Source: Chryseobacterium gleum
GTDB taxonomy: Bacteria; Bacteroidota; Bacteroidia; Flavobacteriales_D; Crocinitomicaceae
Assembly: GCA_945897755.1 (NCBI GenBank)
Contig: CAMDGH010000003.1
Location: forward strand, 1 to 57,411
DNA: 57,411 nt
Reading direction: 5' to 3'
Shown here: positions 10,701 to 44,089 of the stretch, in pieces
Layout of the letters: each line of letters begins with the position of its first letter
Numbering within the stretch: position 1 is the stretch's first letter
Program-made: the position numbers and the translations under genes
The notes under the pieces: model-generated
Told to the model about the DNA's origin: nothing
What the model saw: only the letters and a program-made list of their open reading frames with translations
The model's database searches: none

Positions 10701-11549
10701 CATCCCCTCCATAAGATTATAGCCAAATTTGTCTAAACCAAACACTTTATCATCATACCCATTTACATCTTTTCCTTTAGAGTAAATTCCTGAAGAGACT
10801 AATTCAGCACTACCGAAGTAAGAAGCAGAAGGTCCTCTTGTGGTTACCGAAATAATACCACCAGTTGCATCTCCATAATTAGCAGGCAAGCCCCCAGTTA
10901 TAACGCTCACTTCCTCAATAGCAGATTTTGGTAAATTTGATGATCCCCTCACCTTAATTCCATCAATATAAAAATAGGTGTCATCAGATCTTGATCCACG
11001 GATAGACATTTCACCAGTGCCTTCGTTTGTACCAACACCACCAACTGTTTGAGCAACAGCAGCAGCATTACGAGCAGGTAAGTTCTTAATGTCTTCACGG
11101 GTTAAAGTTCCACCACTAGCAGTGTTATCTTTACTTATCAAAGGAATCTTATATGCTTTTACAACAACATCCTCAATCACTTGAACACCGTTACCATCTT
11201 TTTTAGTAGAAGGCTTAGCTAAAGTTAAGTTATCCAAGAACGTAATTTTATCTCCCGAAATAATAACACCCGTAGTTAAATTCGTTTGATAACCTTCAAC
11301 TTCATTTTTAATTTCAACATCATATTGCCCAGGAGCTATGTTATTCATTAAAAATTTACCTAAATCATCTGTTTTGACACGATTCTTTATCAAATCACCT
11401 TGCTTCAGAACAACTGTAGTATTATAAATAGGCTCATTTGTCTTTTCATCTTTAACGACACCTTTTAAAGTTCCTAAACCAGACTGAGAAAACCCAACAA
11501 AAATTGGAAAAAAAACAACTGTAAATAATAAACCTAGCTTCTTTAACAT
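7770..11549 (-). CDS. TonB-dependent receptor with carboxypeptidase-regulatory-like N-domain
   Basis: This 1259-residue outer-membrane receptor would import a ligand using energy from TonB-ExbBD. A signal peptide (about 1-22, ending GFSQ) is followed by a CarboxypepD_reg-like beta-sandwich (about 27-105, LKGVVKDEKTNEPIYNTTVV). The plug comes next, with the typical segments LPARNAAAVAQTVGGV, SIRGSRSDDTYFYIDG and GGLPANYGDATGGIISV, and then a long 22-strand barrel ending in a terminal Phe (RLGIKLDF). A GTG two codons upstream (11555) is also in frame, but ATG at 11549 gives a normal signal peptide. It heads the run receptor, cargo, PorV-like, greA, HIT. The ligand is unknown, and no SusD partner is present. 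Confidence 0.93.
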   Translation of the reverse strand: MLKKLGLLFTVVFFPIFVGFSQSGLGTLKGVVKDEKTNEPIYNTTVVLKQGDLIKNRVKTDDLGKFLMNNIAPGQYDVEIKNEVEGYQTNLTTGVIISGDKITFLDNLTLAKPSTKKDGNGVQVIEDVVVKAYKIPLISKDNTASGGTLTREDIKNLPARNAAAVAQTVGGVGTNEGTGEMSIRGSRSDDTYFYIDGIKVRGSSNLPKSAIEEVSVITGGLPANYGDATGGIISVTTRGPSASYFGSAELVSSGIYSKGKDVNGYDDKVFGLDKFGYNLMEGMLSGPLLMQRDSTGRKVRPLLGFLVSANFTDELDNRPLGNGGGYRIKKDVRDRILANPLREMPNGQVPLHASNFLHASDFEQNAWRMNSRRTVFSANGKIDVRTGPTVNLTFGGSLNYSTGKQYSYSGSLLNFTNFGTSTGLDWRVYGRLSQRFVNNQEGSSSKIKSAYYSLMVDFSQNYYTNYDDKHQFNPFNYGHVGMFKTTQEPQYKFDVASSTYKQDGVPKDIRVDFTPDKNNSELASVTSQYYSIYKNNPENHYENLFQIQQGNALRNGDQSASVYGIWNNIGTPYNSMGKTENSQFRVSGSGSLNIGDHALSLGFEYEERVDRSWNVSPIGLWSIARLKTNFHLRELDFSQGDTSIINGNTMISYERLNSGNAFVSKTNEYGGNTDNQSFFDYNLRNKLGLAGGGKNSSFVDLDNVDPSKLSLDMFSPDELLNDGNSYVSYYGYDIAGNKVNGNTDISSYFNDTDKNKNYKRFVGAFQPIYVSGYLMDKFSFSDLVFNVGVRVDVFDANQPVLKDPYLLQSAKTVRMANELKDGNNGATYPWVSIPSSMGDDYIVYVNDISKPSSIKGFRNGSNWYNSDGVQVEDPKEIRGAAGIAPWLNDPSDKKVKADAFTKYKQQVNVMPRVAFSFPISDEASFFAHYDILTKRPTNSLRFNPTDYQFIAQSSSPLINNPNLKPETTIDYELGFQQVLNATSSLKISAFYREQRNNVQLVNVFDAYPNSYKTYGNRDFGTVKGMTISYDLRRTGNIRMTANYTLQFAEGTGSDASSAAAFINAGLPNLRNIFPYDFDTRHQFNIVADYRYGSGKDYSGPMIGDFKVFENAGVNFITNIYSGNPYSSQTFITNAAALSPNYSGMTGSLNGSRKPWSYRLDMQFDKTFDLDFSNEGKKKVVFLNLYVRATNLLNQFNIINVYRATGNSDDDGYLAAAQYQSSIQNQYDEQSFRDYYTMKVQNAFNISAPRTVRLGIKLDF

Positions 11550-11790
11550 AATCACATAAATTTATAAACTCTGATGAGATTATTAATAATTTAAACATCG
11601 TCAACCCTAAAACTAAATTAACAATTTAAATTAATTAAAAAAATCATAAAAAAAAATTTTTAAAATAGACTAATTGGTAAAATTAGAAAAAAAAGTGAAA
11701 TCACGATTTATTGAGGCGAAAAATATTAGAAAATTTAGAATAAAGATAAATTGATCTTTATGAAATAAAAAACATTTGATTAAATTTGAA

Positions 11791-12405
11791 ATGAAAATGG
11801 AAAATTTAGAAATCATTACCTTATCCAACCAAGATAGCAATGTCTACGTTTTAGATGTGTCAAATTTAGAAATCGAAAAAAACAACATTCAACTAACAAG
11901 TCTTGATCTAATTAAACTCAGCTCAACAAATGTAGAGTCAAAAAAAAAAGAAATATTGGGAATTAGATATCTTCGAAACAAAATCATTGGGCTCACAGAC
12001 ATAAATTATGATTCGCAAATAGGATATCCGTTCATCTCTAACGGTCCTTACATAAGTATAAGTCATTCAAACAATTTAGTTGCATTAGCTATAAACCCGA
12101 AAAAAACAATTGGCGTTGACATTGAAAAAATATCAGATCGGGTGTTTAAGTTAGCCCATAAATTTCTATCAGAAAAAGAATTATCTCAATTAATGGAATT
12201 AAGTGCGTTAGAAATCACGAAATACTGGAGTATAAAAGAGGTGCTCTATAAAATAGCACATGTGAAATCAATGAGCTTCAAAAATGATTTAGAAGTAAAA
12301 AATGTGTGTTCAACATCTGCATACGGAATAATTAAAAAAACGAATACCATTGAAAATATTCGCATTCACCAGTTGAATAATATGATGATTTGTTTTAACA
12401 GTTAG
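11791..12405 (+). CDS. 4'-phosphopantetheinyl transferase superfamily protein
   Basis: The enzyme would transfer the phosphopantetheine arm of CoA to a carrier protein such as ACP. The family signature is clear: Gly-Val-Asp110-Ile-Glu112 for Mg binding, and Trp146-Ser-Ile-Lys149-Glu150 in the second motif. The 204-residue length fits the Sfp-like two-subdomain type rather than the short AcpS type. The frame opens earlier with a TTG at 11776, but ATG at 11791 (or 11797) is preferred. The stop lies 3 bases before the next gene, so the pair is probably co-transcribed with the lipid-precursor synthase that follows. Confidence 0.9.
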   Translation: MKMENLEIITLSNQDSNVYVLDVSNLEIEKNNIQLTSLDLIKLSSTNVESKKKEILGIRYLRNKIIGLTDINYDSQIGYPFISNGPYISISHSNNLVALAINPKKTIGVDIEKISDRVFKLAHKFLSEKELSQLMELSALEITKYWSIKEVLYKIAHVKSMSFKNDLEVKNVCSTSAYGIIKKTNTIENIRIHQLNNMMICFNS

Positions 12406-12408
12406 AAT

Positions 12409-13143
12409 ATGAAAGTCTCCTTACTCGATAAAATCATTTCAAAAACAGGTCAAATTGCGATATTAATAGATCCGGAAAAAACTAATTCAGCTGATAAATT
12501 AAATGAATTAATTTCAAGAATACATCAACATCAAGTAGATTACATATTTATTGGAGGTAGTTCGTGTACCAATATGGAATTTGAAAAAACAGCTTCCATT
12601 ATAAAACCCCTTACAAACATTCCAATCATAATTTTCCCAGGATCGTCTTCCCAAATAACAAAAAATGCTGATGGTATACTTCTCCTAAGTCTGCTTTCTG
12701 GAAGGAATAGCAAATACTTAATTGAAGAACACATAGATAGTTCATTAAAACTAAGAAAAAGTGTATTGGAAATTATACCGACAAGTTATATCCTTATAAA
12801 TGGAGAAACCGAAAGTAGCGTTAAGAAAATTAGTAATACAATACCACTATCCAGAAACGATTCAAAAGCAATATTAAAAACAACATTAGCTGGGTTAAAT
12901 CAAGGCAAAAAAATCACCTTTTTTGATTGTGGAAGTGGTGCAAAAAAATCAGTCCCATATAGTGTAATAAAGCTTATAAAACAAAACTCAAAAAGCCCAT
13001 TAATTGTAGGAGGAGGAATAAATTCAACTAAAAAAATAAACATCTTTAAAAAGTTAGGTGTAAACATAATTGTAGTTGGAAATTTTATTGAACAAAATAG
13101 TTCAAAAATAACCGAAATACTCCCTTTCAAATCCAAAGGATAG
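12409..13143 (+). CDS. Geranylgeranylglyceryl/heptaprenylglyceryl phosphate synthase family
   Basis: This 244-residue TIM-barrel enzyme condenses a polyprenyl diphosphate with glycerol-1-phosphate. The family is known in archaea and in some Bacteroidota and Firmicutes. Diagnostic segments are IAILIDPEKT near the N-terminus, DYIFIGGSSCT, IPIIIFPGSSSQI, the YILINGETESSV segment and the phosphate-binding LIVGGGINS with VVGNFIE near the end. It follows the phosphopantetheinyl transferase after 3 bases. Chain length (C20 or C35) cannot be decided from sequence alone. Its role in Bacteroidota lipids is not well established. Confidence 0.92.
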   Translation: MKVSLLDKIISKTGQIAILIDPEKTNSADKLNELISRIHQHQVDYIFIGGSSCTNMEFEKTASIIKPLTNIPIIIFPGSSSQITKNADGILLLSLLSGRNSKYLIEEHIDSSLKLRKSVLEIIPTSYILINGETESSVKKISNTIPLSRNDSKAILKTTLAGLNQGKKITFFDCGSGAKKSVPYSVIKLIKQNSKSPLIVGGGINSTKKINIFKKLGVNIIVVGNFIEQNSSKITEILPFKSKG

Positions 13144-13233
13144 AAACATTAATTTCAATTTAACATTAATAATACATAACCAAAATTAATGCGAGTTTAA
13201 TAATCCGTTAATGCTCTAGTTATTGAATTCAAA

Positions 13234-13241
13234 TAAATTTG
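13234..13241 (+). promoter_or_regulatory. Candidate -7 promoter element (TAnnTTTG)
   Basis: TAAATTTG matches the Bacteroidota sigma-ABfr -7 consensus exactly and lies 16 bases before the ATG of the TonB receptor gene, which would give a short leader. No -33 TTTG is evident at normal spacing, so the call is tentative. Confidence 0.35.
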
Positions 13242-13257
13242 TAAAAAAATAAATACA

Positions 13258-16155
13258 ATGAAAAAAATAATTACGGTAATATACCTTTTTTTAATTTGCT
13301 TATTAACAGAAGCAGTTGCACAAATCGGAGCTATTCAAGGTAATGTTACTGATGATCAGACAGGAGAAACATTACCCGGTGTGAAAGTAAGTCTTGATGG
13401 CACTACTAAAATAGTACTCACTGACTTTGATGGAAAATTCACGATACAAGGTATTGAACCAGGAATAGTAAGCTTAACTTTTAAGTATTCAACATACAAT
13501 TCTAAAAATATTACAGACATTATTGTCAAATCAAAAGAAACAACAAATATTGCCATTACACTTGGCTCCATTGTTAAAGAGCAAGAAGAAGTAGTCGTAA
13601 AAGCAACGATAAAAAAAGAATCAAACACAGCTTTACTTCTACAACAAAAAAACTCGGCATCCGTAAGTGATGGGATATCATCAGAATCAATTAAAAGAAC
13701 ACCCGATAGAAGCACAAGCGATGTTCTTAAAAGAATATCGGGAGCAAGTATTCAAGACAATAAATTTGCTATAATTAGAGGATTAAATGATCGATATAAT
13801 GCTGCATATATAAATGGTGCACCACTTCCTAGCTCAGAGTCAGATAGGAAAGCATTTTCATTTGATATATTCCCGGCAAACATGCTAGACAATTTGGTGA
13901 TCATAAAAACAGCAACGCCAGATTTACCGGCAGAATTCGCAGGTGGAGTAATTCAAATTAACACTAAAAGTATTCCGGAGGACAACTTCAAATCAATCAG
14001 CATAAGTTCGGGGTATAACACAATAACAACGGGTAAAGAACTCATCGGATATCAGGGAGGTAAATACGATTTTATTGGAATAGATGACGGTAAAAGAGCA
14101 ATGAACAAAAATATTCCTGGTTTATCTAATGATTTTCCAACAGATATCAATAAGCAAGGTGAATTAGCTAAAATAACGACAACCAATTGGGGTTTAAGAA
14201 AAGATATATTCGCACCAAACTTGAATTTTCAGTATTCCCAAGGTCTAAATTGGTTCATTGGCAAAAGAAGAATAGGTTTATTGGCAGCACTCAATTACAA
14301 TAAATCAAATGTTTACTCGGAAACAGAAAGACACACATACGACAATGGATCAGGGGATATATTATCATTAGAGACAAGTAACATATTGGATAAAAACTAT
14401 AGTTCTCAAGTATTTTCTGGTGCACTGATAAATGCAGCATTTAAAATTAATGAGAAAAATCAAATCAGTTTTAAAAATGTACTTAGCGTCAATACAGATG
14501 ATAAAACGATCATGCGATCAGGTGTTCTAAGCCCATCTCAAGATCCAACAAATTTAAAAGCGAATGTAAAATGGTTTACAAGTAATCAAATTTACACAAG
14601 CCAATTAATTGGAGAACATTTTTTTGAAAAATCCAAAATTAAATTAAATTGGAACGGATCATTTAGTGCTATTAAAAGAGCCATTCCTAACTTACGAAGA
14701 AGTATTTACACACAAAATCAGGGTGAAGGTGAAAAATTTACTGCAGCAATTGAAAGCTCAACAGGACCAAGTTATGGAGGTACAATGTTTTTTTCTGAGA
14801 ACAATGAAGGAATAAGAAGTTTAAAAACAGATATCATTATACCCTTAAATATAGGTGAAAACTTTAAAAATGAGATTAAATTAGGAGGGTTTACTCAACA
14901 TAGATACCGCGATTTTTCAGCACGTTTATTAGGATATGCAAAATACACAACAGGATTATTAGATTTTGATACTGACTTATTAACGATTGACGAAGATCAT
15001 ATTTTTGATGAAAAAAACATGGGTAAATTAGCAAATGGAAAAGGAGGTTTTAGGTTAATTGAAGGAACTAAACCGAGTGATTCATACACTGCTTCTTCTG
15101 ATCTTCAAGCAGGATTTATTCAATTTGACAATAAATGGAAAAAAAATATCCGACTTATTTGGGGGATTAGAGCTGAAAACTTTAAACAAAACCTGTACGC
15201 TGTCAAAAAAACGGGAGATACACTTAATCTCAACAATGAAGCCGTATTAGATGCATTACCATCAGCAAATCTGGTATATTCGCTTGGAAATAAACAAAAC
15301 GTAAGACTTAGCTACTCTCAAACACTAAACAGGCCCGAATATAGGGAATTAGCTCCATTTGCATTTTATGATTTTACTACTCAGTTCGTAATTTCAGGTA
15401 ACGAGTCATTAAAGCGTGCAAAAATTGAAAATTTAGATTTAAGATATGAATGTTTTCTTGGAAAAGGGCAATTAATTTCGGCTTCATTTTTCAAAAAAAC
15501 ATTTAGCAACCCTATTGAACAAATTTCACGACCAGATGTAGCTGATGCGATTTATTACGATAATGTAGCTTCTGCAGAAAACACAGGTTTAGAGATTGAA
15601 GCTCGATTATTACTTTCGACGCTATTTAATTTGGATTCAAATAGAATATTAAATCAATTTACCGTATTTTCAAATCTTGCTATTATTAGATCATCAATCG
15701 ATTTAAGCCAGGTTGTAGGTGCAAAAAGCAGACCACTTCAAGGACAATCTCCTTATGTCTTTAATGCAGGTATATCCTATACAAATTCAGAAAAAGAACT
15801 CTCATTAACATTAAATGCGAACCAAGTTGGACCAAGAATATTTATTGTTGGAAATATAAATGAACCAGATATTTGGGAAAATTCAAGGTTATTTATTGAC
15901 TTTCAAATAGCAAAATCCTTTACAAAACAAAAAAACAGTTTCGAATTGAAGCTTAACCTTCAAAACATATTGGCTCAAAAACAAATTTTCTATCAAAAAA
16001 GTGAAAAATCAGAAAGTATTGGTTCCCCATTTTTAAATAATGTGCTTTACGGAGATAAAAATCAAAAAACAACCTTTGATGAAAAAAATGACGATTTACT
16101 ATGGTCTACTGTATTTGGAAGGATAGCGTCAATTTCAGTCTCCTATAAATTTTAA
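13258..16155 (+). CDS. TonB-dependent receptor, 965 residues
   Basis: This second TonB-dependent outer-membrane receptor has a signal peptide (about 1-21, ending VAQ) and a CarboxypepD_reg-like domain (about 26-105) with GVKVSLDGTTKIVLTDFDGK. The plug contains RTPDRSTSDVLKRISG, AIIRGLNDRYNAAYING and DLPAEFAGGVIQINT. The barrel ends with an aromatic final strand (ISVSYKF). The plug style (RGLNDRYN, LPSSESDRK) is that of the non-SusC group often found beside a parallel-beta T9SS protein, and such a gene follows after 311 bases. The ligand is unknown. No SusD lipoprotein is nearby. Confidence 0.92.
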   Translation: MKKIITVIYLFLICLLTEAVAQIGAIQGNVTDDQTGETLPGVKVSLDGTTKIVLTDFDGKFTIQGIEPGIVSLTFKYSTYNSKNITDIIVKSKETTNIAITLGSIVKEQEEVVVKATIKKESNTALLLQQKNSASVSDGISSESIKRTPDRSTSDVLKRISGASIQDNKFAIIRGLNDRYNAAYINGAPLPSSESDRKAFSFDIFPANMLDNLVIIKTATPDLPAEFAGGVIQINTKSIPEDNFKSISISSGYNTITTGKELIGYQGGKYDFIGIDDGKRAMNKNIPGLSNDFPTDINKQGELAKITTTNWGLRKDIFAPNLNFQYSQGLNWFIGKRRIGLLAALNYNKSNVYSETERHTYDNGSGDILSLETSNILDKNYSSQVFSGALINAAFKINEKNQISFKNVLSVNTDDKTIMRSGVLSPSQDPTNLKANVKWFTSNQIYTSQLIGEHFFEKSKIKLNWNGSFSAIKRAIPNLRRSIYTQNQGEGEKFTAAIESSTGPSYGGTMFFSENNEGIRSLKTDIIIPLNIGENFKNEIKLGGFTQHRYRDFSARLLGYAKYTTGLLDFDTDLLTIDEDHIFDEKNMGKLANGKGGFRLIEGTKPSDSYTASSDLQAGFIQFDNKWKKNIRLIWGIRAENFKQNLYAVKKTGDTLNLNNEAVLDALPSANLVYSLGNKQNVRLSYSQTLNRPEYRELAPFAFYDFTTQFVISGNESLKRAKIENLDLRYECFLGKGQLISASFFKKTFSNPIEQISRPDVADAIYYDNVASAENTGLEIEARLLLSTLFNLDSNRILNQFTVFSNLAIIRSSIDLSQVVGAKSRPLQGQSPYVFNAGISYTNSEKELSLTLNANQVGPRIFIVGNINEPDIWENSRLFIDFQIAKSFTKQKNSFELKLNLQNILAQKQIFYQKSEKSESIGSPFLNNVLYGDKNQKTTFDEKNDDLLWSTVFGRIASISVSYKF

Positions 16156-25025: not shown

Positions 25026-25029
25026 AATA

Positions 25030-25391
25030 AAGCAAGTCAGTTTGTCGCCTGATTTTAGATTAGGAGGAAAGTCTGGGCAGTATAGAGCACCGTACTTCCT
25101 AACAGGAAGGGTTAGTAAACGAACACAGAAAGTGCCACAGAAAGGAAAACTACCTGGGAAACCAGGTAAAGGTGAAAAGGTGAGGTAAGAGCTCACCGTG
25201 CTTTTGGTGACAAAAGCTGCAAGGTAAACCTTACGGACTGAAAGACCATGTAAACCGGGGATGTTTAGTAATAAACGGAATGGCTGCTCGCCAAACTCGG
25301 AGGGTAGGTCGATTGATTCTATGAGTGATTATAGAACTAGATAAATGACAAATAAGCGAAAGCGAAACAGAACCCGGCTTATGACTTGCTT
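25030..25391 (+). ncRNA. rnpB: RNase P RNA (class A-like)
   Basis: This is the catalytic RNA of ribonuclease P, which trims the 5' leader of tRNA precursors. The conserved 5' core GAGGAAAGTCTGGGC is at about 25052-25066 and the 3' core AAGCGAAAGCGAAACAGAACCCGGCTTA at about 25353-25381, with ACAGAAA and CTGAAAGACCATG-like conserved parts between. The ends AAGCAAGTCA (25030-25039) and TGACTTGCTT (25382-25391) pair as helix P1. A T run at 25389-25397 overlaps the 3' side and probably ends transcription. It is divergent from the broken sixA gene. Confidence 0.95.
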
Positions 25392-25460
25392 TTTTTTAAA
25401 CTAAATTCACTTTGCGGCTTGCGTTTGAACTTCAATTCACAAGCTACTAAATAGATTGAT

Positions 25461-34667: not shown

Positions 34668-35264
34668 TTACTTAAGTGCCTCATTAAACGTATTTACATC
34701 AGGATAAGATAATAATGCTTTATTAAAAAACGAAATTGCCTCCTCTTTTTTTCCTTGAGCAAACATAACCCAACCAGCCAAGCTATTTCCGTCAAAATCT
34801 AATGGGTAAAAACCCAGATAAGACGATAAAAAAACCCATGATTTATTATAATCAGCTCGATTATAATAAATCAAACCCAAACGATACAAAGAAGATGCAT
34901 GTGCTGGGTCAACAGCAATTATTGCTTTATATTGTTCAATCACTTTATCCCATTTTTCCATAGAAGCTAATGGATTAACATAAGCCAAACGTGCCTCGAT
35001 ATTTTTCGGATTTAAATCAACTACTTTTTTATAAAAAGCACAAGACTCAACAAACTTTTTATTCGCATAATTCAACCATCCTAAACGCATAGTAACCTCA
35101 TATACACCTTTATCATATGGAGTTATTTCTTCGATTGCTTTTGCATATTGAAACTGTGATTCAGCAGCATAACTTTTTTTAAATGCATTTCTAAGTGAAG
35201 CTGAATACTGAGAAAACCCAGGAAAAGAGATCAACAAAACAGCACTAATAATAAACCTTTTCAT
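34668..35264 (-). CDS. Secreted TPR protein (tandem paralogue 2)
   Basis: This 198-residue protein has a signal peptide (about 1-18, ending GFSQ). Helical TPR pairs follow from about residue 30: VYEVTMRLGWLNYANKKFVESCAFYKKVVDLNP, KVIEQYKAIIAVDPAHASSLYRLGLIYYN and EEAISFFNKALLSYP. It is about half identical by eye to the preceding gene (35293-35910), including the shared FYPLDFDGNSLAGW segment. It is probably periplasmic. It is the last gene of the run starting with the PqqD-like gene, and TPRs usually hold protein complexes together. Confidence 0.85.
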   Translation of the reverse strand: MKRFIISAVLLISFPGFSQYSASLRNAFKKSYAAESQFQYAKAIEEITPYDKGVYEVTMRLGWLNYANKKFVESCAFYKKVVDLNPKNIEARLAYVNPLASMEKWDKVIEQYKAIIAVDPAHASSLYRLGLIYYNRADYNKSWVFLSSYLGFYPLDFDGNSLAGWVMFAQGKKEEAISFFNKALLSYPDVNTFNEALK

Positions 35265-35292
35265 ACCTTTTTTTTAAATTAATTAAACCTAT

Positions 35293-35910
35293 TTATTTAA
35301 TTCCCAACACCTTATTGAAACTTGCATCATAGGGGTTAACCAACAATGCTTTTTTAAAAAAAACGAACGCTTCTTCTTTTTTTCCAACAGAAAATTTAAT
35401 CCAACCAGCCAAACTATTCCCATCAAAGTCAAATGGATATAAGTGGATATACTGTTGTATAAACTTCCAAGATAAGCTATACTCAGTTCGATTATAATGG
35501 ATTAAACCTAACCGATAAAGCGCAGTTGGATTTCCACTATCATACTTCAAAATAACTTTATAATGTTCGATTACATTATCCCATTTATCAAGTGTTCCTA
35601 AAGGATAAACAATTCCAAGACGCGCCTCAATGCTATATGGCATTTTAGCAATCGCTTTTTTATAAAACGATATTGATTCGAGGTACTTTCCAGCTTTATA
35701 ATGTAACCAACCCATACGAAGATTGACTTCATACAAAGATTGATCACTCACTTTATTGAGTTCTTCTATTGACTTCAGGTATTTCAACTGAAATTCAGCA
35801 TCATAACTTTTCCGAAAAGCCTCCTTATTATCAAGTTCAGATTGAGCATTTAATGATAAAAAGGAGAAAAAAACTCCAAAAATAAGCGCGTATCTAGTTA
35901 GAACTTCCAT
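35293..35910 (-). CDS. Secreted TPR protein (tandem paralogue 1)
   Basis: This 205-residue protein has a signal peptide (about 1-22, ending LNAQ) and TPR helices: LYEVNLRMGWLHYKAGKYLESISFYKKAI, NVIEHYKVILKYDSGNPTALYRLGLIHYN and EEAFVFFKKALLVNP. It is the sister of the gene 28 bases downstream. Its start overlaps the end of the TPR-barrel gene by 13 bases, so translation is coupled. It is probably periplasmic. The arrangement with the barrel protein suggests that the three form one envelope complex, which is inference. Confidence 0.85.
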   Translation of the reverse strand: MEVLTRYALIFGVFFSFLSLNAQSELDNKEAFRKSYDAEFQLKYLKSIEELNKVSDQSLYEVNLRMGWLHYKAGKYLESISFYKKAIAKMPYSIEARLGIVYPLGTLDKWDNVIEHYKVILKYDSGNPTALYRLGLIHYNRTEYSLSWKFIQQYIHLYPFDFDGNSLAGWIKFSVGKKEEAFVFFKKALLVNPYDASFNKVLGIK

Positions 35911-37226
35911 GTCAAAGTTGTTATAAGTGATTGGTTTAAAATTAATTCAGATGATGAAGACAATGCTGGATTATACCGATTTATTAGGCTTTCCCTTCGC
36001 ATTAAATCATATCGTAAAGCAGCAGAAAAGAAAGAAGTAAAAGGGTATTGTATATTGAATCCTGTCTTAGTAATTAATTTATCGGATATATTAAAAATAA
36101 CATACCCGTTTCCATCACAAAAATTTGTTAAGTCTCCACCAAAATAATAAAGATCAACCCACGATTTTTTACCAATTAAAAACCCCGTCTTTATGTTGTA
36201 TACCATTCTATTTTGTGAATCACTTTTAGAATATGCACAGCCAGATGAGACTAAAAAAGAACCATCTCCAAAAACATTACACGTTAATTGTGATCCAAAC
36301 TGAAGGAAAAGTGAAGAGTCAATATAGGCTGATGAAAGAGATAAAGAAGATGTCCATTTTCGAACAGTTTTACTAATACCTAACGTTGCTAAATAATTTG
36401 ATTGGTTTAACTTCAAAATATCATACTTGTAAACCTTAGAAGCAGTATCAAAACTCACACTATTTTTTATTGCGTGATAAGAAAATAAGTTCCCTCCTAA
36501 TTGAATTAAGAGGCCTTTATTGCACTGAATATTAACTCCAGTATAAAGTTGATATTGTTTAACTCCATAGTGGGCAAGAGAGTCGAGGGATATTGAATTT
36601 TGAGAATATGAAATATATTGCTTTCGTTTATTTTGAATGTAAGTTATACCATGATAAAATGAAAATCTTTTTCCTAACTGATACCCTAAACCTACCTGAT
36701 TATATACTACCTGACTAAGCCGATCGCTTTCTGCATACAAACCATCAGAAGTTAAAAATGCATTTCGATCAGTAAATAAAGCAGATGGATTAACCCATTG
36801 AAATCCGGATTCGATAACAAGAAGATTTTGATTCCCTAATAATCCCAAATAAAAAGAACGATTTGATAAAGGAAACTTAGATGCAATAAGCCGCGCAGAA
36901 GACACATCGTTAAGATAAAGATAAGCGAAAAAGAGCTTGTCTTTTGAATACAAGTCAGCAGGATAAAAATTCAACGCTTTCTCTAAATGATAAATAGCAT
37001 GTGCATAATTCCCTATTCCAAAATAAAGTAAACCCAAACGAAGACGTAAATAATAAAAATCATTGCCTTGATTTATGGATTGATTTACTAAATATCTTAG
37101 ACTAACTATATCAGATGAAGAATAATACACCAAAGACATACTATCAATATAAGATTCCTTCATGTTCTTCTGTGAAAAAAAAGTATTTGCACTCAGCATA
37201 AAAAAAAACACTACGAAATAACGCAT
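35898..37226 (-). CDS. TPR-containing outer-membrane beta-barrel protein (YaiO-like)
   Basis: This 442-residue protein has a signal peptide (about 1-18, ending FFSQ), an N-terminal TPR part (about 20-130: LRLRLGLLYFGIGNYAHAIYHLEKALNFYP) and a C-terminal beta-barrel (about 150-442) ending in Phe (LITTLTWKF). A TPR domain ahead of a barrel recalls YaiO and exopolysaccharide-export porins such as AlgE/PgaA-like proteins, but no specific match is claimed. It overlaps the end of the urea-transporter/M23 gene by 16 bases and the TPR gene by 13, so the genes are tightly coupled. It is a candidate outer-membrane exit or uptake pore for the system. Confidence 0.75.
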   Translation of the reverse strand: MRYFVVFFFMLSANTFFSQKNMKESYIDSMSLVYYSSSDIVSLRYLVNQSINQGNDFYYLRLRLGLLYFGIGNYAHAIYHLEKALNFYPADLYSKDKLFFAYLYLNDVSSARLIASKFPLSNRSFYLGLLGNQNLLVIESGFQWVNPSALFTDRNAFLTSDGLYAESDRLSQVVYNQVGLGYQLGKRFSFYHGITYIQNKRKQYISYSQNSISLDSLAHYGVKQYQLYTGVNIQCNKGLLIQLGGNLFSYHAIKNSVSFDTASKVYKYDILKLNQSNYLATLGISKTVRKWTSSLSLSSAYIDSSLFLQFGSQLTCNVFGDGSFLVSSGCAYSKSDSQNRMVYNIKTGFLIGKKSWVDLYYFGGDLTNFCDGNGYVIFNISDKLITKTGFNIQYPFTSFFSAALRYDLMRRESLINRYNPALSSSSELILNQSLITTLTWKF

Positions 37227-39433
37227 ACAGCTTTTAAATTTAAGTGTTTACCAAATACATAAAACTCATACAATTGACTGTCTTTTAACACCGTATTATA
37301 TTCAAATGCCTTTTGTTTAATTCCTCCTATTCTAATTTCAGCTTTTGATTCTAAGGTAATCTGATTCGATAAATTAGCATCATCAATATTCGCATAGCAC
37401 ATTGAATAATGTGTTTTGAAAAACTGATAAAATGGCGCAATAAAATCTTGTAAAACCTGAAGGAATTTTATGGATAATGTATCCATCGGATATTGCTCTT
37501 CAATGATTAAACCTTTGTAAAAACCAAAAATCAACTTGTAGTGTGCTAAATAAAAATGATGAAGTAATCCAGACTTATCTCCGATAAAACTCGTGAAAAT
37601 GAGCATATTACCATCATTATAGAAATATGCGTACGATTTAGATTCACTACAATATAAAAAGGTTAAATTATATGCATCTGTAAAAATTTCCCAATTTTCT
37701 GAACCTGAAATAACACCCTCATCATAAATATCAAAGTGAAATTTCTTACCAGGAATAAAATCGAATGCCGATTTAAGCAACGGATTGACATCTATCGTTT
37801 GAATAAGCTGACCTTCTTGAGGAATATCAAACGTTTTTAACTTCCATTCTTTATGTTCATTTAATAAATAATAAGCCAACGGATAAGAGCGTGTTTTTTC
37901 TCCAATCAAAGGAGTTGCTTGCAATTGAAAATGAATATGCGGTTCTGGCGACCTACCCGAATTACCGCAATACCCAACAATTTCACCCCTTTTAACAAAA
38001 TCACCTACAGCGACTTTAATACTCCCTTTTTTCAAATGACTTAACTTACTATATAATCCATCAACATGAAAAATAACAATTGAATTCCCCCAATTTTGGA
38101 GGGTATTAACACCTCGTATTTCATTATCATCAACATGATCAACAATTGATGAAACATATCCATCAGCACAAGCTACTACCGGCTTATTGAAACAATAAAA
38201 ATCAGTAAGATTCGTCCCAGATTGCTCGTAAGACTTCATTTCTTCATCAAGTACAATGAAGTCAAACGCTTTAGACCAGTCACCCAAATGCGTTATTTTT
38301 CCATCATGTGCTTGAGAAACCATCCACTCACCCCAAAATGGCAAATGAATCGGAATGTAATTAAACTGACGTAATCGGTTATTAGAATTTAAATGAGCAG
38401 CTAAATTTTTTTCTGGAGAATGCAATTGATAAATAACCTTATGAATGTAACTTACCCTAATTCGATAATAAAGAATGTATAAAAATAAGACCACTATCAA
38501 AGAAAAAGGCAAAGAATAAACAGGTAAGTCCAAAGGAGTTAAAATCCTATTCAATCCAAAAAAAAGTAAAATCATAATTGGCATTAAGACCATTGAAAGC
38601 AGATAACTCACAAAAGAAGGAACTAAGTATATTCCACCAATTGCAATTGAAAGAAAAATGAAACTTAATCCAACAAAATTAGTCGATAAATCAGCTAAAT
38701 TGCCCCCGAAAAAAGAATAACAAAAGTATCCTACAAAAAAACCAAGTAAACTAAGCGAAAAAGCGATCCTAGAATAGACAATCAAAGCAATTGCCATAAG
38801 TGTACCTGAAAGTAAATTTGGCAAGAAAAATAAAGCCCCTAATGATTTTAAATAAATTCTAAAAAAAGAAGGAATACCACTAAAAACAGTATCTAGCTGA
38901 TTTAGGAAAAGTAACCAATCTGAAATTGTATTACCCGAAGATGGATGAAGTGTGTTTAACGGGTAAAGTATGTGGTGATGAACATCCAATGCAGTCATTT
39001 CAGTCGATGCACTAAGAACAATCCAAGCAGTGAAAACGAAAGGAATACTCAGTGAAGGTAACAGGTATTTATGTAATACTGCATGAATGAAATTCCCTAT
39101 TAAAACAGACAAAAATCCCACACAAAAAATAACTGCAACTAAAATTAAATTAAGCTCAAAAGTATACACCAATCCAAAAGCAACCAACATAGCGTCAAAT
39201 CCATAATATCCTTTCCTAATGGATTCAGTATTTAGACCAATAAGCAAAGAAAAAACATTCGCAGAAAGAAGCCCTAACAAACCAGCTATTCCTGCTATTG
39301 GGTTAACAAATGAAGCTATCAAAAATAGAAATCCAACTATTTTATTTGTTGAGAAAAATAAAATAGCATGCGTATTCAAGATAGATTCAATCCACCAAAA
39401 AGGATGTTTAATACTATAATACTGCTCTTTCAT
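37211..39433 (-). CDS. Urea transporter family protein fused to an M23 (LytM-like) peptidase
   Basis: The 740-residue product has two parts. Residues about 20-325 are hydrophobic and follow the urea transporter family plan of two similar halves: NPIAGIAGLLGLLSANVFS with KGYYGFDAMLVAFGL, and later FFGGNLADLSTNFVGLSF. These channels conduct urea or other small neutral solutes. Residues about 365-525 are an M23 zinc peptidase domain with His382, Asp391 (AFDF), His466 (LSHLKKG) and the His499-Ile-His501 motif. The peptidase must lie on the periplasmic side. A tail of about 215 residues follows, of no clear family. It lies 72 bases downstream of the decarboxylase gene with a hairpin between. Confidence 0.85.
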   Translation of the reverse strand: MKEQYYSIKHPFWWIESILNTHAILFFSTNKIVGFLFLIASFVNPIAGIAGLLGLLSANVFSLLIGLNTESIRKGYYGFDAMLVAFGLVYTFELNLILVAVIFCVGFLSVLIGNFIHAVLHKYLLPSLSIPFVFTAWIVLSASTEMTALDVHHHILYPLNTLHPSSGNTISDWLLFLNQLDTVFSGIPSFFRIYLKSLGALFFLPNLLSGTLMAIALIVYSRIAFSLSLLGFFVGYFCYSFFGGNLADLSTNFVGLSFIFLSIAIGGIYLVPSFVSYLLSMVLMPIMILLFFGLNRILTPLDLPVYSLPFSLIVVLFLYILYYRIRVSYIHKVIYQLHSPEKNLAAHLNSNNRLRQFNYIPIHLPFWGEWMVSQAHDGKITHLGDWSKAFDFIVLDEEMKSYEQSGTNLTDFYCFNKPVVACADGYVSSIVDHVDDNEIRGVNTLQNWGNSIVIFHVDGLYSKLSHLKKGSIKVAVGDFVKRGEIVGYCGNSGRSPEPHIHFQLQATPLIGEKTRSYPLAYYLLNEHKEWKLKTFDIPQEGQLIQTIDVNPLLKSAFDFIPGKKFHFDIYDEGVISGSENWEIFTDAYNLTFLYCSESKSYAYFYNDGNMLIFTSFIGDKSGLLHHFYLAHYKLIFGFYKGLIIEEQYPMDTLSIKFLQVLQDFIAPFYQFFKTHYSMCYANIDDANLSNQITLESKAEIRIGGIKQKAFEYNTVLKDSQLYEFYVFGKHLNLKAVCVIS

Positions 39434-39451
39434 GTAGGTTGATAGAATAAC

Positions 39452-39492
39452 AAAAAAAGCAATTATTGAACATAATATTCAATAATTGCTTT
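39452..39492 (-). terminator. Intercistronic terminator-like hairpin (possible attenuator)
   Basis: The perfect 15-base stem AAAGCAATTATTGAA (39456-39470) with TTCAATAATTGCTTT (39478-39492), loop CATAATA, is followed on the minus strand by seven T. It lies between the decarboxylase stop and the ATG of the urea-transporter fusion gene, only 18 bases from that ATG, so there is no room for another promoter after it. It probably limits read-through rather than ending the operon. Confidence 0.7.
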
Positions 39493-39505
39493 GAGATAAC
39501 TCATA

Positions 39506-40870
39506 TTATAAATTAATGGATTTTAAATATTCTGGCATACGCTCCATTTGAGTAATGGTATCTACCGTTTCATTTTCACGAATAACGTGAGGTTTACCAT
39601 TCGTATCAATCAAGACCACTTTTGGACGCATCGCAATAAACTGCATCCACTGAGTCATATTATAAGCTCCAACTTTATGGACAACCACCTGATCACCTTT
39701 ATTCAGAGCAGGAAGAGTAACACTCTGTCTCACAACATCAATATTCATACATAAAGGACCGTATAAGACCATCTCTTCTGTATGTGAAGAAAATTCTTGA
39801 GCAGGGGTAATTTTATGTTCATACCAAAATGCTGTAAATAAAATATTGACACCAAAATCCATTATTGTTGCTCTACGCCCATCAGACAATCGTTTATTCG
39901 CAATAACACTGCCTAATAAATAACCAGCATCATCAATCAAAGCCCTTCCAGATTCTAGAATTAATAATGGAAGATCTTCTTTTGGAAATCCATAGTTTAA
40001 AATCGTAGTTGTAATAGCCTCCGCAAATTCATCAATCGATGGAATAACATCTGAACCAGGTAAATAAGAACCTCTTAGGTTGTTAGCAGAAGGGAAACCT
40101 CCCCCTAAATCTAAGTATTGAATACTTTTCTTATATACATATTTAATATTAACAGCTAAATCAGCTAATTTTGAAGCAGCAACAGAATAAGGAGCAGTAG
40201 ATAACATAAATGTTCCAATATGAGAATGAAGCCCTACCAATTCTAAGTATTCAGAAGCCATAATTTTAGTAATCGCATTCCAAGCTTGACCTGACTCATA
40301 ATTAAATCCAAAACGATCCCATACAGGATATACTCCAGTATCCATATTAACCCTGATTGCAACCTTTGCAGATTTTTCCAATTTAGTAGTTAACTCAATT
40401 AAATCATACAATTCATCAAAATGATCAATATGAATGTAAGAACCGTTTTCTATGGCAACTTGCATATCATCTTTGGTTTTTTCTGGGCCATTAAAAATGA
40501 TTTTATTTCCAGGAACACCATTTTGAATTGCTTTAGTATACTCAAAAATCGATACTACTTCCGCCCAAGAACCCTCTTGATGAAATACATTACAAACCGC
40601 ATCTATGTAGTTGGTTTTGTAACTCCACGCAAATTGAACTTTAGGATAACGTGTTTTAAAAGCCCGAACTGCATTTTGATATGTTTTACGAATCGTTCTT
40701 TCAGAAATAACAAAACATGGAGATCCATATTTTGCAATTAACTCTTTCACCGAAACTCCATCAATATGAGTGAAAGGTGCATATTCTGTTCGAGTACCAT
40801 ATTTATTCATCAATCCCGTATTCATTTTACGAATGGCAGGTCTTTCATATTTCATTTTTTGCGTTTCCAT
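39506..40870 (-). CDS. Fold-III PLP-dependent decarboxylase (diaminopimelate/ornithine decarboxylase-like)
   Basis: This 454-residue enzyme has an alanine-racemase-type TIM barrel and a C-terminal beta domain. The PLP lysine is Lys85 (SYKTN). Other hallmarks are LVGLHSHIGT, the phosphate-binding LDLGGGFPS, ILESGRALID, the catalytic GPLCMNID and GAYNMTQW. Such enzymes remove a carboxyl group from amino acids like meso-diaminopimelate, ornithine or lysine. The specificity loop does not tell which. The first 30 residues precede the domain and contain Tyr8-x-x-Pro11-x-Ile13 and Gly19, like a lasso-peptide leader. It is the third gene after a PqqD-like and an ATP-grasp gene. Confidence 0.88.
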   Translation of the reverse strand: METQKMKYERPAIRKMNTGLMNKYGTRTEYAPFTHIDGVSVKELIAKYGSPCFVISERTIRKTYQNAVRAFKTRYPKVQFAWSYKTNYIDAVCNVFHQEGSWAEVVSIFEYTKAIQNGVPGNKIIFNGPEKTKDDMQVAIENGSYIHIDHFDELYDLIELTTKLEKSAKVAIRVNMDTGVYPVWDRFGFNYESGQAWNAITKIMASEYLELVGLHSHIGTFMLSTAPYSVAASKLADLAVNIKYVYKKSIQYLDLGGGFPSANNLRGSYLPGSDVIPSIDEFAEAITTTILNYGFPKEDLPLLILESGRALIDDAGYLLGSVIANKRLSDGRRATIMDFGVNILFTAFWYEHKITPAQEFSSHTEEMVLYGPLCMNIDVVRQSVTLPALNKGDQVVVHKVGAYNMTQWMQFIAMRPKVVLIDTNGKPHVIRENETVDTITQMERMPEYLKSINL

Positions 40871-40905
40871 ATTATTCTAATTTTACTATTAGTTAATTTA
40901 AATAT

Positions 40906-41961
40906 TTACAATTCTCCGAAAGCGGATATTTTTTGAAATTCAGATACATCCGTAATTAAATCCCATGCATATCTAATAAAAAGTTTTCCAACATCATAAC
41001 CTTTATAAGGATCTACTTTTTGACCTAAAGCTAACTTTGCTAATGCGGCTGGTTGATTTTGTCCTGCACCAACAGTCAAATAAATCCAAGCAGGAAAACG
41101 AGGATTGACTTCCATAATATATGGTTTTCCTTCTTTTGTTCTCATAATTTCAATTTCAAAACCTCCCCTCCAATGAGTAGCTTTAATGAATTTTTCAGCA
41201 AGTTCAATTAAAGTAGGTTCTTCTAGCGTAATCCCAGCCCACGCTTTTCCTTTGTCAGTAATAAACAATTTACGCATTGGCACTGCACTAATGGTAACTC
41301 CATTTCCATCACCTAAAGCAGCAATATTAACCTCAGTACCTGAAATAAACTCTTGAACAATAATAGGGAGTCCCCATTTTGCATTCAATGCATGAAATGC
41401 TTTCTGAGCTTGCTCAAGGGTGTAGGCAACCGTAGCTTCATAGTATTTCCCTTTAATAACCATTGGATAACCAAATTCTTTCGATACTGAATGTAAATCC
41501 GTTATATCGTAAATTGTTTTGTCTTTTGGCACTAAAAACCCATGTTTCTCACCAAATTCAAACAAATTAATTTTATCTCTCGATTCTAATTGTTCAGCAG
41601 TAGGAAGAAAAGTAGCGGTACCCATTTCTTTTAAAGCTGGGCCAATTTTAATAAAATTAAATAATTCAGCATCAAAATTTGGAATAATAACATCCACTTT
41701 TTCAATAGAATGAATATATGCTAATCTGTTTAATAATGCTTCAGTTCCGGCAGCAGGATATGGGATTTGATATACTTTATCAGCAATACCTTCCATGTAA
41801 ATTCCAGGTTCAAGAGATTCATAAGACAACCCAATAATTCTTAAATCAAAATCGACACAATCTCTTAAGCCACGAATAACAGCAACTCCGGGTCCAGGGC
41901 TATCTACAGCGTTGAGACCAGTAACAGCTATTGTTAATTTAAGTTTTTTAGAATTAGTCAT
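40906..41961 (-). CDS. ATP-grasp carboxylate-amine ligase
   Basis: This 351-residue ATP-grasp protein follows the carbamoyl-phosphate-synthetase-like type. The N-terminal pre-ATP-grasp domain begins LTIAVTGLNAVDSPGPGVAVIRGL. The central domain has the ATP-binding FGYPMVIKGKYYEA and IIVQEFISGTEVNIAALGDG. The Mg-binding C-terminal part has GGFEIEIMRTKEGKPYIMEVNPRFPAW. These enzymes activate a carboxylate as acyl-phosphate and join it to an amine. It overlaps the PqqD-like gene by 8 bases and is followed after 35 bases by the decarboxylase, so the three work in one pathway. Substrates are unknown. Confidence 0.9.
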   Translation of the reverse strand: MTNSKKLKLTIAVTGLNAVDSPGPGVAVIRGLRDCVDFDLRIIGLSYESLEPGIYMEGIADKVYQIPYPAAGTEALLNRLAYIHSIEKVDVIIPNFDAELFNFIKIGPALKEMGTATFLPTAEQLESRDKINLFEFGEKHGFLVPKDKTIYDITDLHSVSKEFGYPMVIKGKYYEATVAYTLEQAQKAFHALNAKWGLPIIVQEFISGTEVNIAALGDGNGVTISAVPMRKLFITDKGKAWAGITLEEPTLIELAEKFIKATHWRGGFEIEIMRTKEGKPYIMEVNPRFPAWIYLTVGAGQNQPAALAKLALGQKVDPYKGYDVGKLFIRYAWDLITDVSEFQKISAFGEL

Positions 41962-42199
41962 GATTTACTAAATAATGATCTTTTAACTGAGCTATAAAAT
42001 CTTCAACGTCTTTTTCTAATAGAATTGGGTCTACATCATACGTTTCAAGTAATGATTGCATAATTTGACTCATTGACTTATTTTCTTTCAATAATCTAAT
42101 TAAATCCGCACCAACATTATTAGTAGAGAAGGAATCTCCATTGTAAGGATTAAAAATAAACCCGTTATCACTGACTGCTAAATTTGAATGTATCTTCAT
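41954..42199 (-). CDS. PqqD-like (RRE-fold) small protein
   Basis: This 81-residue protein has the PqqD plan: three N-terminal strands (SNLAVSDNGFIFNPYNGDSFSTNN) then helices (VGADLIRLLKENKSMSQIMQSLLETYDV and PILLEKDVEDFIAQLKDHYLV). The PqqD fold is the RiPP recognition element that holds a leader peptide for tailoring enzymes. No radical SAM or cyclase gene is nearby. It is the first gene of the run and overlaps the ATP-grasp gene by 8 bases. No separate precursor peptide gene was found in the adjoining gap. Confidence 0.85.
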   Translation of the reverse strand: MKIHSNLAVSDNGFIFNPYNGDSFSTNNVGADLIRLLKENKSMSQIMQSLLETYDVDPILLEKDVEDFIAQLKDHYLVNHD

Positions 42200-42332
42200 A
42201 ATTATTAATTTTTAATGACTCTTTATCTTATGAAACAAAGATTAAAAATAAATATACATAAATAAAAAAAATGATACCTAAAAGGAAAAGAAAAGGATAA
42301 AGAGGTGTTTTTCGTCGAAAATAAACAAAGCA

Positions 42333-43058
42333 TTAATCCTCAGACAAATCTAATCCTAAGGCTTTATATAATAAAAGTCTATAATTGTCACCTATAAGAA
42401 GTTCGTTTCCATCAATAATAAGGCGAGATTTCTTGATGGATGAAATTTTACATAAATTAACAATATATGATTTATGAATTCTCTTAAACCCTAACAAATC
42501 CAAACGATCTTCAATCGATTTCAAACTCATACGAGTTATAATCGATTTTGGATTTCCACTAATGAAAATTTTTATGTAATCTTTTAGACCTTCTATAAAC
42601 GAAATGTCTGAAATCGATATTTTAATTAAACTATAGTCCGAATTTACGAATAAGAAATCGGGTGGTAATTGCTTTAAGACAGAGGGAGTAGATTGTTTTG
42701 TTAATAATTGCACTTCCCTTACCTTAGAGACACTTTTATAAAATCGATCAAAAGAAAATGGTTTTAAAAGGTAATCAATCACATCCAGCTCAAATCCCTC
42801 TAAGGCATATTTAGTGTATGCAGTTGAAAAAATAACATAGGGACGTTGTTTTAGTGATTTAATAAATTGAATTCCAGAAATCTCAGGCATTTCAATATCA
42901 ATAAATAGAAGGTCAATTTGCTCTGTTTCTAAAATAGTAAATGCATTAATCGGATTATTACAAATAGCAACTAATTGTAAAAAAGGAACTTTACGAATAA
43001 AATCCTCCATCATCTCTAGAGCAAGAGACTCATCATCAATACATAAACAACGTATCAT
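42333..43058 (-). CDS. LytTR-family response regulator
   Basis: This 241-residue regulator has a receiver domain (1-120) with the acidic pair DDE near residue 8, phospho-acceptor Asp54 (LLFIDIEMPEI) and Lys99 (YLLKPF). A C-terminal LytTR DNA-binding domain (about 145-236) carries ISFIEGLKDYIKIFI and RIHKSYIVNL. LytTR proteins usually bind repeated sites upstream of envelope genes. The start overlaps the kinase stop by 4 bases. It may control itself or the PqqD-like operon 134 bases downstream. Confidence 0.94.
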   Translation of the reverse strand: MIRCLCIDDESLALEMMEDFIRKVPFLQLVAICNNPINAFTILETEQIDLLFIDIEMPEISGIQFIKSLKQRPYVIFSTAYTKYALEGFELDVIDYLLKPFSFDRFYKSVSKVREVQLLTKQSTPSVLKQLPPDFLFVNSDYSLIKISISDISFIEGLKDYIKIFISGNPKSIITRMSLKSIEDRLDLLGFKRIHKSYIVNLCKISSIKKSRLIIDGNELLIGDNYRLLLYKALGLDLSED

Positions 43059-44089
43059 TTATCAAAATTTAGTTTGAAATCTACGTAAAAAAAACGTTCA
43101 TCTTTACTTAACTTTAAGTCAAATCTTCCTGGATAAAGCAATTCAAGTCTTCGCTTAACATTCACTAAACCAATACCATGATCATTTTGATCCTTAATTC
43201 GTATAACAGAACTATATTTATTTTGGGTAAATAAGCGTATGTATTCAGCTGTAATCTCAATATCAATTTTAATAAAAGGAGTTTCTAACACATTTGTTCC
43301 GTGCTTAAACGCATTTTCAATAAATGGAATTAAAAGCATTGGCTCTATAAATCGATCTATTTTTTGATCATAAATGATTTTTTTTTGTATTTCTACGGTC
43401 TTTCCAAAACGAATATCTTGAAGAGAAATATAACTATTTATGTATTCTAATTCATTTTCAATACTTACTTTTTCTTCATCAGAATCATACAACATGTAGC
43501 GAAGGATATTAGATAACATAAGGAGGGAATCTTCCGCTAAAGCAGATTTTTTTCTCACTAAAATGATACTACTATTTAAAGCATTAAAAATAAAATGAGG
43601 GCTTATCTGAGATCTTAAAAAAGACACTTCCATTTTTGATTGCTGATGTTTATTTTCTTCTGTTATTTTAAGAATAGCTATATAATCAAAGATAATCCGG
43701 TATAAAAAACTTATAAAAAAAACAATGAAAAACGGGAAGCTAAATCTTATAAAATTGAATGAAAAAAAATGATGAATATGAAAATTAAACGGAAGCACAG
43801 TTTGATTAAGCTGAAATTGAAATCCGAAAAACAACAAAAAAGATAAACAAAAAGAAACAGAAATCAAATAATATAATCTATTGAAAGAATAAACATTAGG
43901 CATTAAATAATAAAAATTAAAATAGAATAAAAAAACATGTAGAATTTGATTTAGTATCAAGTCTGTGCTAAATAAAGAAGCAGATGATACATCATTGAAC
44001 TGAGAAAAAATAAATGAAATAAAATAAAAACCAACCCAAGATAAGGTGTGTATTAATTTAGTGTGCAATTTTATAAATGAATAAGACAT
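43055..44089 (-). CDS. LytS/YehU-type sensor histidine kinase
   Basis: This 344-residue protein has about four transmembrane helices in the first 135 residues and almost no extracellular loop, so it probably senses within the membrane. A His_kinase (PF06580-type) domain follows, with His165 in SQISPHFIFNALNS, and an HATPase region with PFIENAFKHGTN and HGIGLVNVKRRLELLYPG. The partner is the overlapping LytTR regulator. The PorE-like gene lies 24 bases upstream on the same strand, and the signal is unknown. Confidence 0.94.
   Translation of the reverse strand: MSYSFIKLHTKLIHTLSWVGFYFISFIFSQFNDVSSASLFSTDLILNQILHVFLFYFNFYYLMPNVYSFNRLYYLISVSFCLSFLLFFGFQFQLNQTVLPFNFHIHHFFSFNFIRFSFPFFIVFFISFLYRIIFDYIAILKITEENKHQQSKMEVSFLRSQISPHFIFNALNSSIILVRKKSALAEDSLLMLSNILRYMLYDSDEEKVSIENELEYINSYISLQDIRFGKTVEIQKKIIYDQKIDRFIEPMLLIPFIENAFKHGTNVLETPFIKIDIEITAEYIRLFTQNKYSSVIRIKDQNDHGIGLVNVKRRLELLYPGRFDLKLSKDERFFYVDFKLNFDK

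Follow-up and report, generated by a model that had tools for sequence, protein, structure and literature searches.

A conserved six-gene operon of Bacteroidota combining a PqqD-like protein, an ATP-grasp ligase and a decarboxylase with a urea-transporter-like channel fused to an M23 peptidase

What product is made, and by which route is it moved, by a set of genes that joins a leader-binding fold, a ligase and a decarboxylase to a membrane channel with a peptidase fused to it? The question is raised by positions 34668-42199 of a stretch of DNA from Chryseobacterium gleum (contig CAMDGH010000003.1 of assembly GCA_945897755.1), which was analysed over its whole length of 57,411 nucleotides and is referred to here as the window. 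The gene calls are based on the open reading frames (ORFs) listed for the window and on Pfam and NCBIfam profile searches, and they place seven co-directional ORFs on the minus strand, joined by overlaps of 8-16 bp or separated by gaps of 28-72 bp. This arrangement had been described in an original prediction, made from the letters of the window, which also named the domains (matched here by PF05402, PF15632/PF02655, PF02784/PF00278, PF03253 with PF01551, and tetratricopeptide repeats, TPRs) and proposed the synthesis and trans-envelope movement, or the cell-wall use, of an amine or peptide-like product. The observation is confirmed, domains included, and its interpretation is partly supported: synthesis and movement across the envelope fit the ligase-decarboxylase pair and the presence of inner- and outer-membrane proteins. 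The reading preferred here, at a probability of roughly 0.42, is that six of the genes form an operon for PqqD-guided ligation, decarboxylation, release by the M23 module and export of a small amine.

The conserved core consists of genes for the PqqD-like protein, the ATP-grasp ligase, the fold-III decarboxylase, the fusion of a urea transporter (UT) to M23, a TPR-barrel protein and a TPR protein. A scan of 84,980 species, represented by one genome each, yielded 80 related loci that were kept, whose labels, save for a few 'uncultured bacterium' records, are those of Bacteroidota or Chlorobiota groups. The six genes follow each other in this order in nearly all of them, a regularity well beyond chance, the exceptions lying mostly at contig ends. 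In an independent sample of 395 genomes, drawn evenly across Bacteroidota, the ATP-grasp (at least 376 bits) and the full UT-M23 (at least 327 bits) occur in the identical 34 genomes of 16 families, where the two are adjacent, and none of the 395 has one without the other. The decarboxylase gene adjoins them in 34 of 34 carriers, which make up about one in eleven, or about 9%, of the sampled genomes; a weak ATP-grasp match of 120 bits in a further genome (G369) sits in an unrelated locus and was not counted as a carrier. Across 49 loci, pairwise identities and distances of the six core proteins show correlations of 0.78-0.96, part of which the shared ancestry of the hosts would yield by itself, and the six genes appear to be inherited as one set. 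Co-occurrence, which the original prediction had asked to be checked for all seven genes, holds for six of them, the seventh being a duplicate confined to one clade. Five divergent carriers (L082-L086) keep the PqqD-like protein, ATP-grasp, decarboxylase and UT-M23 and have a shorter or replaced barrel protein, and in one of them UT-M23 is without its last domain.

Spread outside Bacteroidota was judged from the scan of close-relative genomes and from plasmids and phages, among which there was one weak generic phage match, no match on a Bacteroidota plasmid and no relative on a viral contig; mobility by phage or plasmid was accordingly rejected. A defence system was considered and rejected, as none of the seven locus proteins matched the PADLOC anti-phage models, and no operon protein tested scores above an NCBIfam cut-off. 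The original prediction knew of no described system with this gene set, and none was found in the literature searched, outside which most subscription journals lie, so that an earlier description is possible. A linked six-gene system of 16 families whose function is undescribed would point to a metabolite and an export route that are missing from the account of a major phylum.

The fold-III decarboxylase (39506..40870, minus strand, 454 aa; PF02784 at 3.3e-28 with PF00278) depends on pyridoxal 5'-phosphate (PLP), and it retains the PLP lysine, the glycine loop, the arginine and the catalytic cysteine. Its nearest solved relative is the N-citrylornithine decarboxylase FigC/FslC (7kh2, 271.8 bits, as against 191.8 bits for diaminopimelate decarboxylase), and BtrK is also among its solved relatives. 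In FigC the position next to the catalytic cysteine, where an acidic residue would otherwise bind a free side-chain amine, is taken by a methionine, and His357 is proposed to contact the citryl group (PMC7857480). The operon enzyme has the pair Cys374-Met375, with methionine next to the catalytic cysteine in 77 of 77 sequences, and all 77 also have isoleucine (Ile377) at the site of His357. Judged from these residues, the enzyme probably acts on an amino acid that carries a mask other than citrate on its distal group. It scores 221.9 bits with the N-citrylornithine decarboxylase model NF041039, for which the cut-off is 500.

That the enzyme is simply the host's ordinary diaminopimelate decarboxylase in an unusual place is very improbable. 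Such an identity would suit the five carriers in which no LysA above cut-off was found (G031, G116, G124, G365 and G000, the window's own genome, which is 94% complete so that its LysA may be missing data), but a separate true LysA is present in 29 of the 34 carriers, so that for most of them the lysine pathway is served by an enzyme other than that of the operon. The identity was rejected for this reason and because the window protein scores 218.5 bits with the LysA model TIGR01048 (213-248 bits across all carriers), below the cut-off of 297.9; the acidic residue next to the catalytic cysteine is moreover replaced, and the gene is always linked to the ATP-grasp.

The ATP-grasp ligase (40906..41961, minus strand, 351 aa; PF15632/PF02655) is of the PRK12767 type and falls below all NCBIfam cut-offs. 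Its ATP- and Mg-binding residues K170, E269/E271, E284 and N286 are invariant, for which reason it is predicted to be active, and it carries the family-specific motifs GL.YE.LEPGIYM and PNFDAEL; on the strength of conserved residues both ligase and decarboxylase look active. There is good reason to expect that the two act in series, ligase first, because relatives of both are fused in one protein of Streptomyces zaomyceticus (WP_327166871.1), the first half resembling the ATP-grasp and the second being a Cys-Met decarboxylase. The fusion is a single record, and hence good yet single evidence; among plasmids the ATP-grasp has no other strong relative, and the genes annotated around the fusion include neither PqqD nor UT. 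It suggests that the ligase-decarboxylase chemistry may extend beyond Bacteroidota. The fusion gene lies at 12001-14277 of locus L094 on plasmid NZ_CP108525.1 and is followed by genes for a 195-aa protein of no assigned function and a fatty-acid desaturase, which may represent a separate undescribed pathway.

Two known systems use comparable chemistry. The butirosin proteins BtrI-BtrJ-BtrK, of which BtrJ is the ATP-grasp ligase, likewise combine in series a small protein, an ATP-grasp enzyme and a decarboxylase of the alanine racemase fold; the small protein of the operon is PqqD-like, however, and not an acyl carrier, its decarboxylase is nearer to FigC than to BtrK, and UT-M23 and the outer-membrane genes have no counterpart there. 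In the FigA-FigC rhizoferrin pathway decarboxylation follows acylation of the side-chain amine and the Cys-Met motif is shared, whereas the ligase of the operon is an ATP-grasp instead of an NRPS-independent siderophore (NIS) synthetase and the citrate-contacting histidine has become isoleucine.

The first core gene (41954..42199, minus strand; PF05402 at 2.4e-12) encodes a PqqD-like protein of 81 aa with the fold of a recognition element for ribosomally synthesised and post-translationally modified peptides (RiPPs) and the family motif S..GF.F....G.SF..N. The best solved matches of its profile are the leader-binding B1 proteins of lasso peptides, TbiB1 (8e-13) and TfuB1, to which it is alike in fold and sequence, although a precursor, a B2 protease, a cyclase and a radical SAM enzyme are all lacking from the operon. 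This likeness, together with the 8 bp overlap between the PqqD-like and ATP-grasp genes, would favour a true RiPP pathway in which a precursor whose gene lies elsewhere is held by its leader on the PqqD-like protein, the ATP-grasp adds a residue or crosslinks one, the decarboxylase works on the peptide and M23 serves as the leader protease. Such a pathway is nevertheless unlikely: the search around the 80 loci for ORFs of 18-80 aa returned antisense or clade-specific noise and no small ORF that is conserved within or next to them, so that a local precursor was rejected, though a remote gene may exist; the PRK12767-type ATP-grasp does not match graspetide ligase models; and the Streptomyces fusion does without an annotated PqqD neighbour.

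The UT-M23 fusion (37211..39433, minus strand; PF03253 at 1.3e-47 for UT and PF01551 at 1.5e-14 for M23) is composed of a UT-like channel (residues 1-322), an M23 module (residues ~365-520) and a C-terminal beta domain. Its AlphaFold 2 model has a predicted local distance difference test score (pLDDT) of 88.1 and matches the bacterial urea channel dvUT (3k3f, template modelling (TM) score of 0.84 on the target) as well as several M23/LytM folds. Filter positions of dvUT and UT-B have been discussed (PMC4357013), and those compared here, in dvUT numbering, are Q24, E187, T130 and T294. The filter Glu/Gln site at E187 is Ala, Ser or Gly in 61 of 61 fused proteins, the pore threonines are mostly serine and the window protein has a hydrophobic residue at the Q24 site, whereas stand-alone UTs in ten Bacteroidota genomes retain the Gln, the Glu/Gln and the Thr of the filter. 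The fusion has the fold of a urea channel (UT/SLC14) but, by its sequence, not the polar filter. Phe27 and Phe203, which line the path in dvUT, are kept, and the UT part may therefore still pass something small. In one locus (L014, CP096135.1, 12570-14752) the UT-M23 frame is broken into two overlapping ORFs by a frameshift or a sequencing error.

The genomic setting differs as well. The three stand-alone UTs that were examined stand in a urease operon setting, the neighbours tested being urease accessory genes, but the urease link is absent from the fused form: of the 34 carriers, 1 has a genuine urease alpha gene, other matches above the cut-off being partial and of about 23-25 bits. Because of this and of the lost filter Glu/Gln, the UT part is very probably no longer a urea channel, contrary to the name under which it was first predicted. 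A role in urea handling, in which urea would be taken up or released and the enzymes would make a urea- or guanidine-related compound, has the clear UT fold in its favour and was rejected as most improbable, since the residues kept by the stand-alone UTs of the phylum are lost here and urease is absent from 33 of 34 carriers. The domain names 'urea transporter' and 'diaminopimelate decarboxylase' accordingly call for caution in annotation, as both are attached to proteins from which the activity-defining residues are gone.

On which side of the inner membrane does the M23 module act? Its residues H382, D391, H466, H499 and H501 are invariant and supply, on a LytM fold, the His/Asp zinc-ligand set, so that the module is predicted to be catalytically intact. 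It shares its fold and His/Asp set with the endopeptidases Csd2, DipM and ShyA, from which it differs in a His-to-Asp spacing of 9 positions instead of 4, in its predicted cytoplasmic location and in the fused channel. A secreted stand-alone M23 family (L088-L092) has the same long His-Asp spacing; some of its His residues are substituted, and those proteins may be inactive. In the UT fold, as known from UT-B, both chain ends lie on the inner side of the membrane. Loop sides were assigned from predicted helices and this fold, and the density of Lys and Arg is higher on the side of the N and C termini in 61 of 61 fusions (the window protein has 9 there and 0 on the other side), a bias that persists when internal loops are counted alone. 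In the model M23 follows the last membrane helix, with neither a signal peptide nor an extra membrane span between. The charge bias, the inward chain ends and the lack of a further span together make a cytoplasmic M23 module likely.

A periplasmic M23, and with it the cell-wall use that the original prediction had in mind, become doubtful as a result. In a cell-wall system a periplasmic M23 would trim peptidoglycan, UT would be its anchor or a channel for wall fragments and the enzymes would supply an amine for decoration of the wall. The invariant catalytic residues, the secreted stand-alone relatives and fold matches that are peptidoglycan hydrolases speak for such a system, which is none the less judged unlikely, as both termini come to lie in the cytoplasm by the positive-inside bias and by homology to dvUT and UT-B, and nothing between UT and M23 would carry the latter across the membrane.

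The gene for the TPR-barrel protein (35898..37226, minus strand, 442 aa) starts within the 3' end of the UT-M23 gene and encodes a secreted protein with an outer-membrane beta-barrel. Its AlphaFold 2 model (pLDDT 90.5) bears out the TPR-barrel of the original prediction, with a signal helix followed by TPR hairpins (residues 24-130) and strands (135-441), and this predicted model contains the signal peptide, TPR and beta-barrel expected of an outer-membrane TPR-barrel exporter. The best, yet distant, Foldseek matches are the barrels of FadL, TodX, OmpG and BcsC. Like BcsC and PgaA it has TPRs followed by an outer-membrane barrel, but it is much shorter, there are no polysaccharide genes and the TPR part is lost in the most divergent loci. 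Directly after the barrel gene, a place that is conserved, lies the core gene for a secreted periplasmic TPR protein (35293..35910, minus strand, 205 aa; PF07719) with a Sec signal in its sequence. The seventh gene (34668..35264, minus strand, 198 aa; PF07719) encodes a second secreted TPR protein and is a tandem duplicate confined to the window's clade, the second copy being present only in L002, L003, L005-L010 and L021; L011 has a single TPR copy, located upstream of the PqqD-like gene. In many Bacteroidales loci (L046, L056, L061, L063, L064, L069, L071, L072, L075 and L076) a type-IX-secreted Por_Secre_tail protein of about 265 aa is encoded directly 3' of the operon and may be an extra partner.

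How could these proteins work together? It is proposed that the leader-binding fold of the PqqD-like protein positions or carries a partner that bears a carboxylate or peptide, to which the ATP-grasp, with its conserved active residues, would attach an amino acid by an amide-type bond. The decarboxylase would then, and for this step the support is good, remove the alpha-carboxyl of the conjugated amino acid to leave an amine, by analogy with FigC, which acts on N-citrylornithine, and BtrK, which decarboxylates carrier-bound glutamate (PMC7857480). At the cytoplasmic mouth of the fused channel M23 would cut the product free, the UT-derived pore would release this small product, presumably a small amine, from the cytoplasm, and its passage over the periplasm and the outer membrane would fall to the TPR proteins and TPR-barrel. 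That a channel of UT descent with a fused cytoplasmic M23 both releases and exports an amine made on a PqqD-bound partner, and so represents a new class of system, is a tentative proposal that falls some way short of probable; if true, it would be a small-molecule export route with a fused release enzyme for which there is no described counterpart.

Several points weigh against this scheme. The UT pore is narrow, which may mean that the exported product is very small or that the UT part is a mere anchor, and the outward direction of transport is an inferred one. The closest stand-alone M23 relatives bear signal peptides and act outside the cytoplasm, and Cys content does not discriminate the location of M23, being similar in the secreted relatives. 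The top structural matches of the TPR-barrel are generic, with TM scores below 0.5 on the query. No precursor was found near the operon, and the PqqD-like protein may have a remote peptide or a protein as its partner or may itself act as carrier or scaffold. A link to metals, finally, consists of neighbouring genes alone and concerns a minority of loci.

These neighbours lie within 2.5 kb upstream of the operon and were counted in 64 loci and 95 background windows. An HMA-like AraC regulator is found in 15/64 against 1/95, in lineages other than that of the window, DUF2202 in 11/64 against 0/95 and heavy-metal-resistance (Metal_resist) proteins in 6/64 against 2/95; in Bacteroidales the operon often adjoins one of the three. 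This hints, by correlation, at a role in envelope or metal stress. It would also suit a small metal chelator that is secreted under metal stress, for instance an N-acyl diamine comparable to the N-citryl amines found in NIS siderophores, and the closest relative of the decarboxylase is indeed a rhizoferrin enzyme. Such a product is less likely still than a RiPP or a cell-wall amine, given that the histidine proposed to contact citrate in FigC is replaced throughout, that the operon has neither a siderophore receptor nor an NIS synthetase, that a siderophore would not fit through the narrow UT pore and that the window's clade uses LytTR instead.

In that clade a LytTR-type response regulator (42333..43058, minus strand; PF00072 with PF04397) is encoded upstream together with the LytS-type histidine kinase with which it pairs (43055..44089, minus strand; PF06580; conserved in L002-L011 and L021). 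A LytTR gene lies within the same upstream distance in 17/64 loci, compared with 3/95 of the background windows, and the pair probably regulates the operon in the window's clade. The promoter region (42236..42300, minus strand) has a direct repeat and a -7-like element. Most relatives in the clade have in this intergenic region two copies resembling CGTATCTTTT, exactly 21 bp apart and followed at a fixed distance by CATnTTTG, which resembles the Bacteroidota -7 box; in the window the downstream copy (GGTATCATTT, 42278-42269) is clean, the upstream one (~42300-42291) is degenerate, and the -7-like element is AATCTTTG at 42243-42236. The CGTATCTTTT-like repeat is a putative LytTR site. Within the operon, a perfect 17-bp AT-rich hairpin with a T tail (39456..39492, minus strand) occupies the gap between the decarboxylase and UT-M23 genes and resembles an attenuator or terminator; it would be specific to the window, because the corresponding gap of 9-15 bp in close relatives leaves no space for it.

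Elsewhere in the window, a 1402-aa protein without a Pfam match is encoded at 3542-7750, between a PorV-like gene (2472-3530) and the gene for a TonB-plug protein (7770-11555), and a bacterial class A RNase P RNA lies at 25029-25396 on the plus strand (Rfam RF00010, 260.5 bits).

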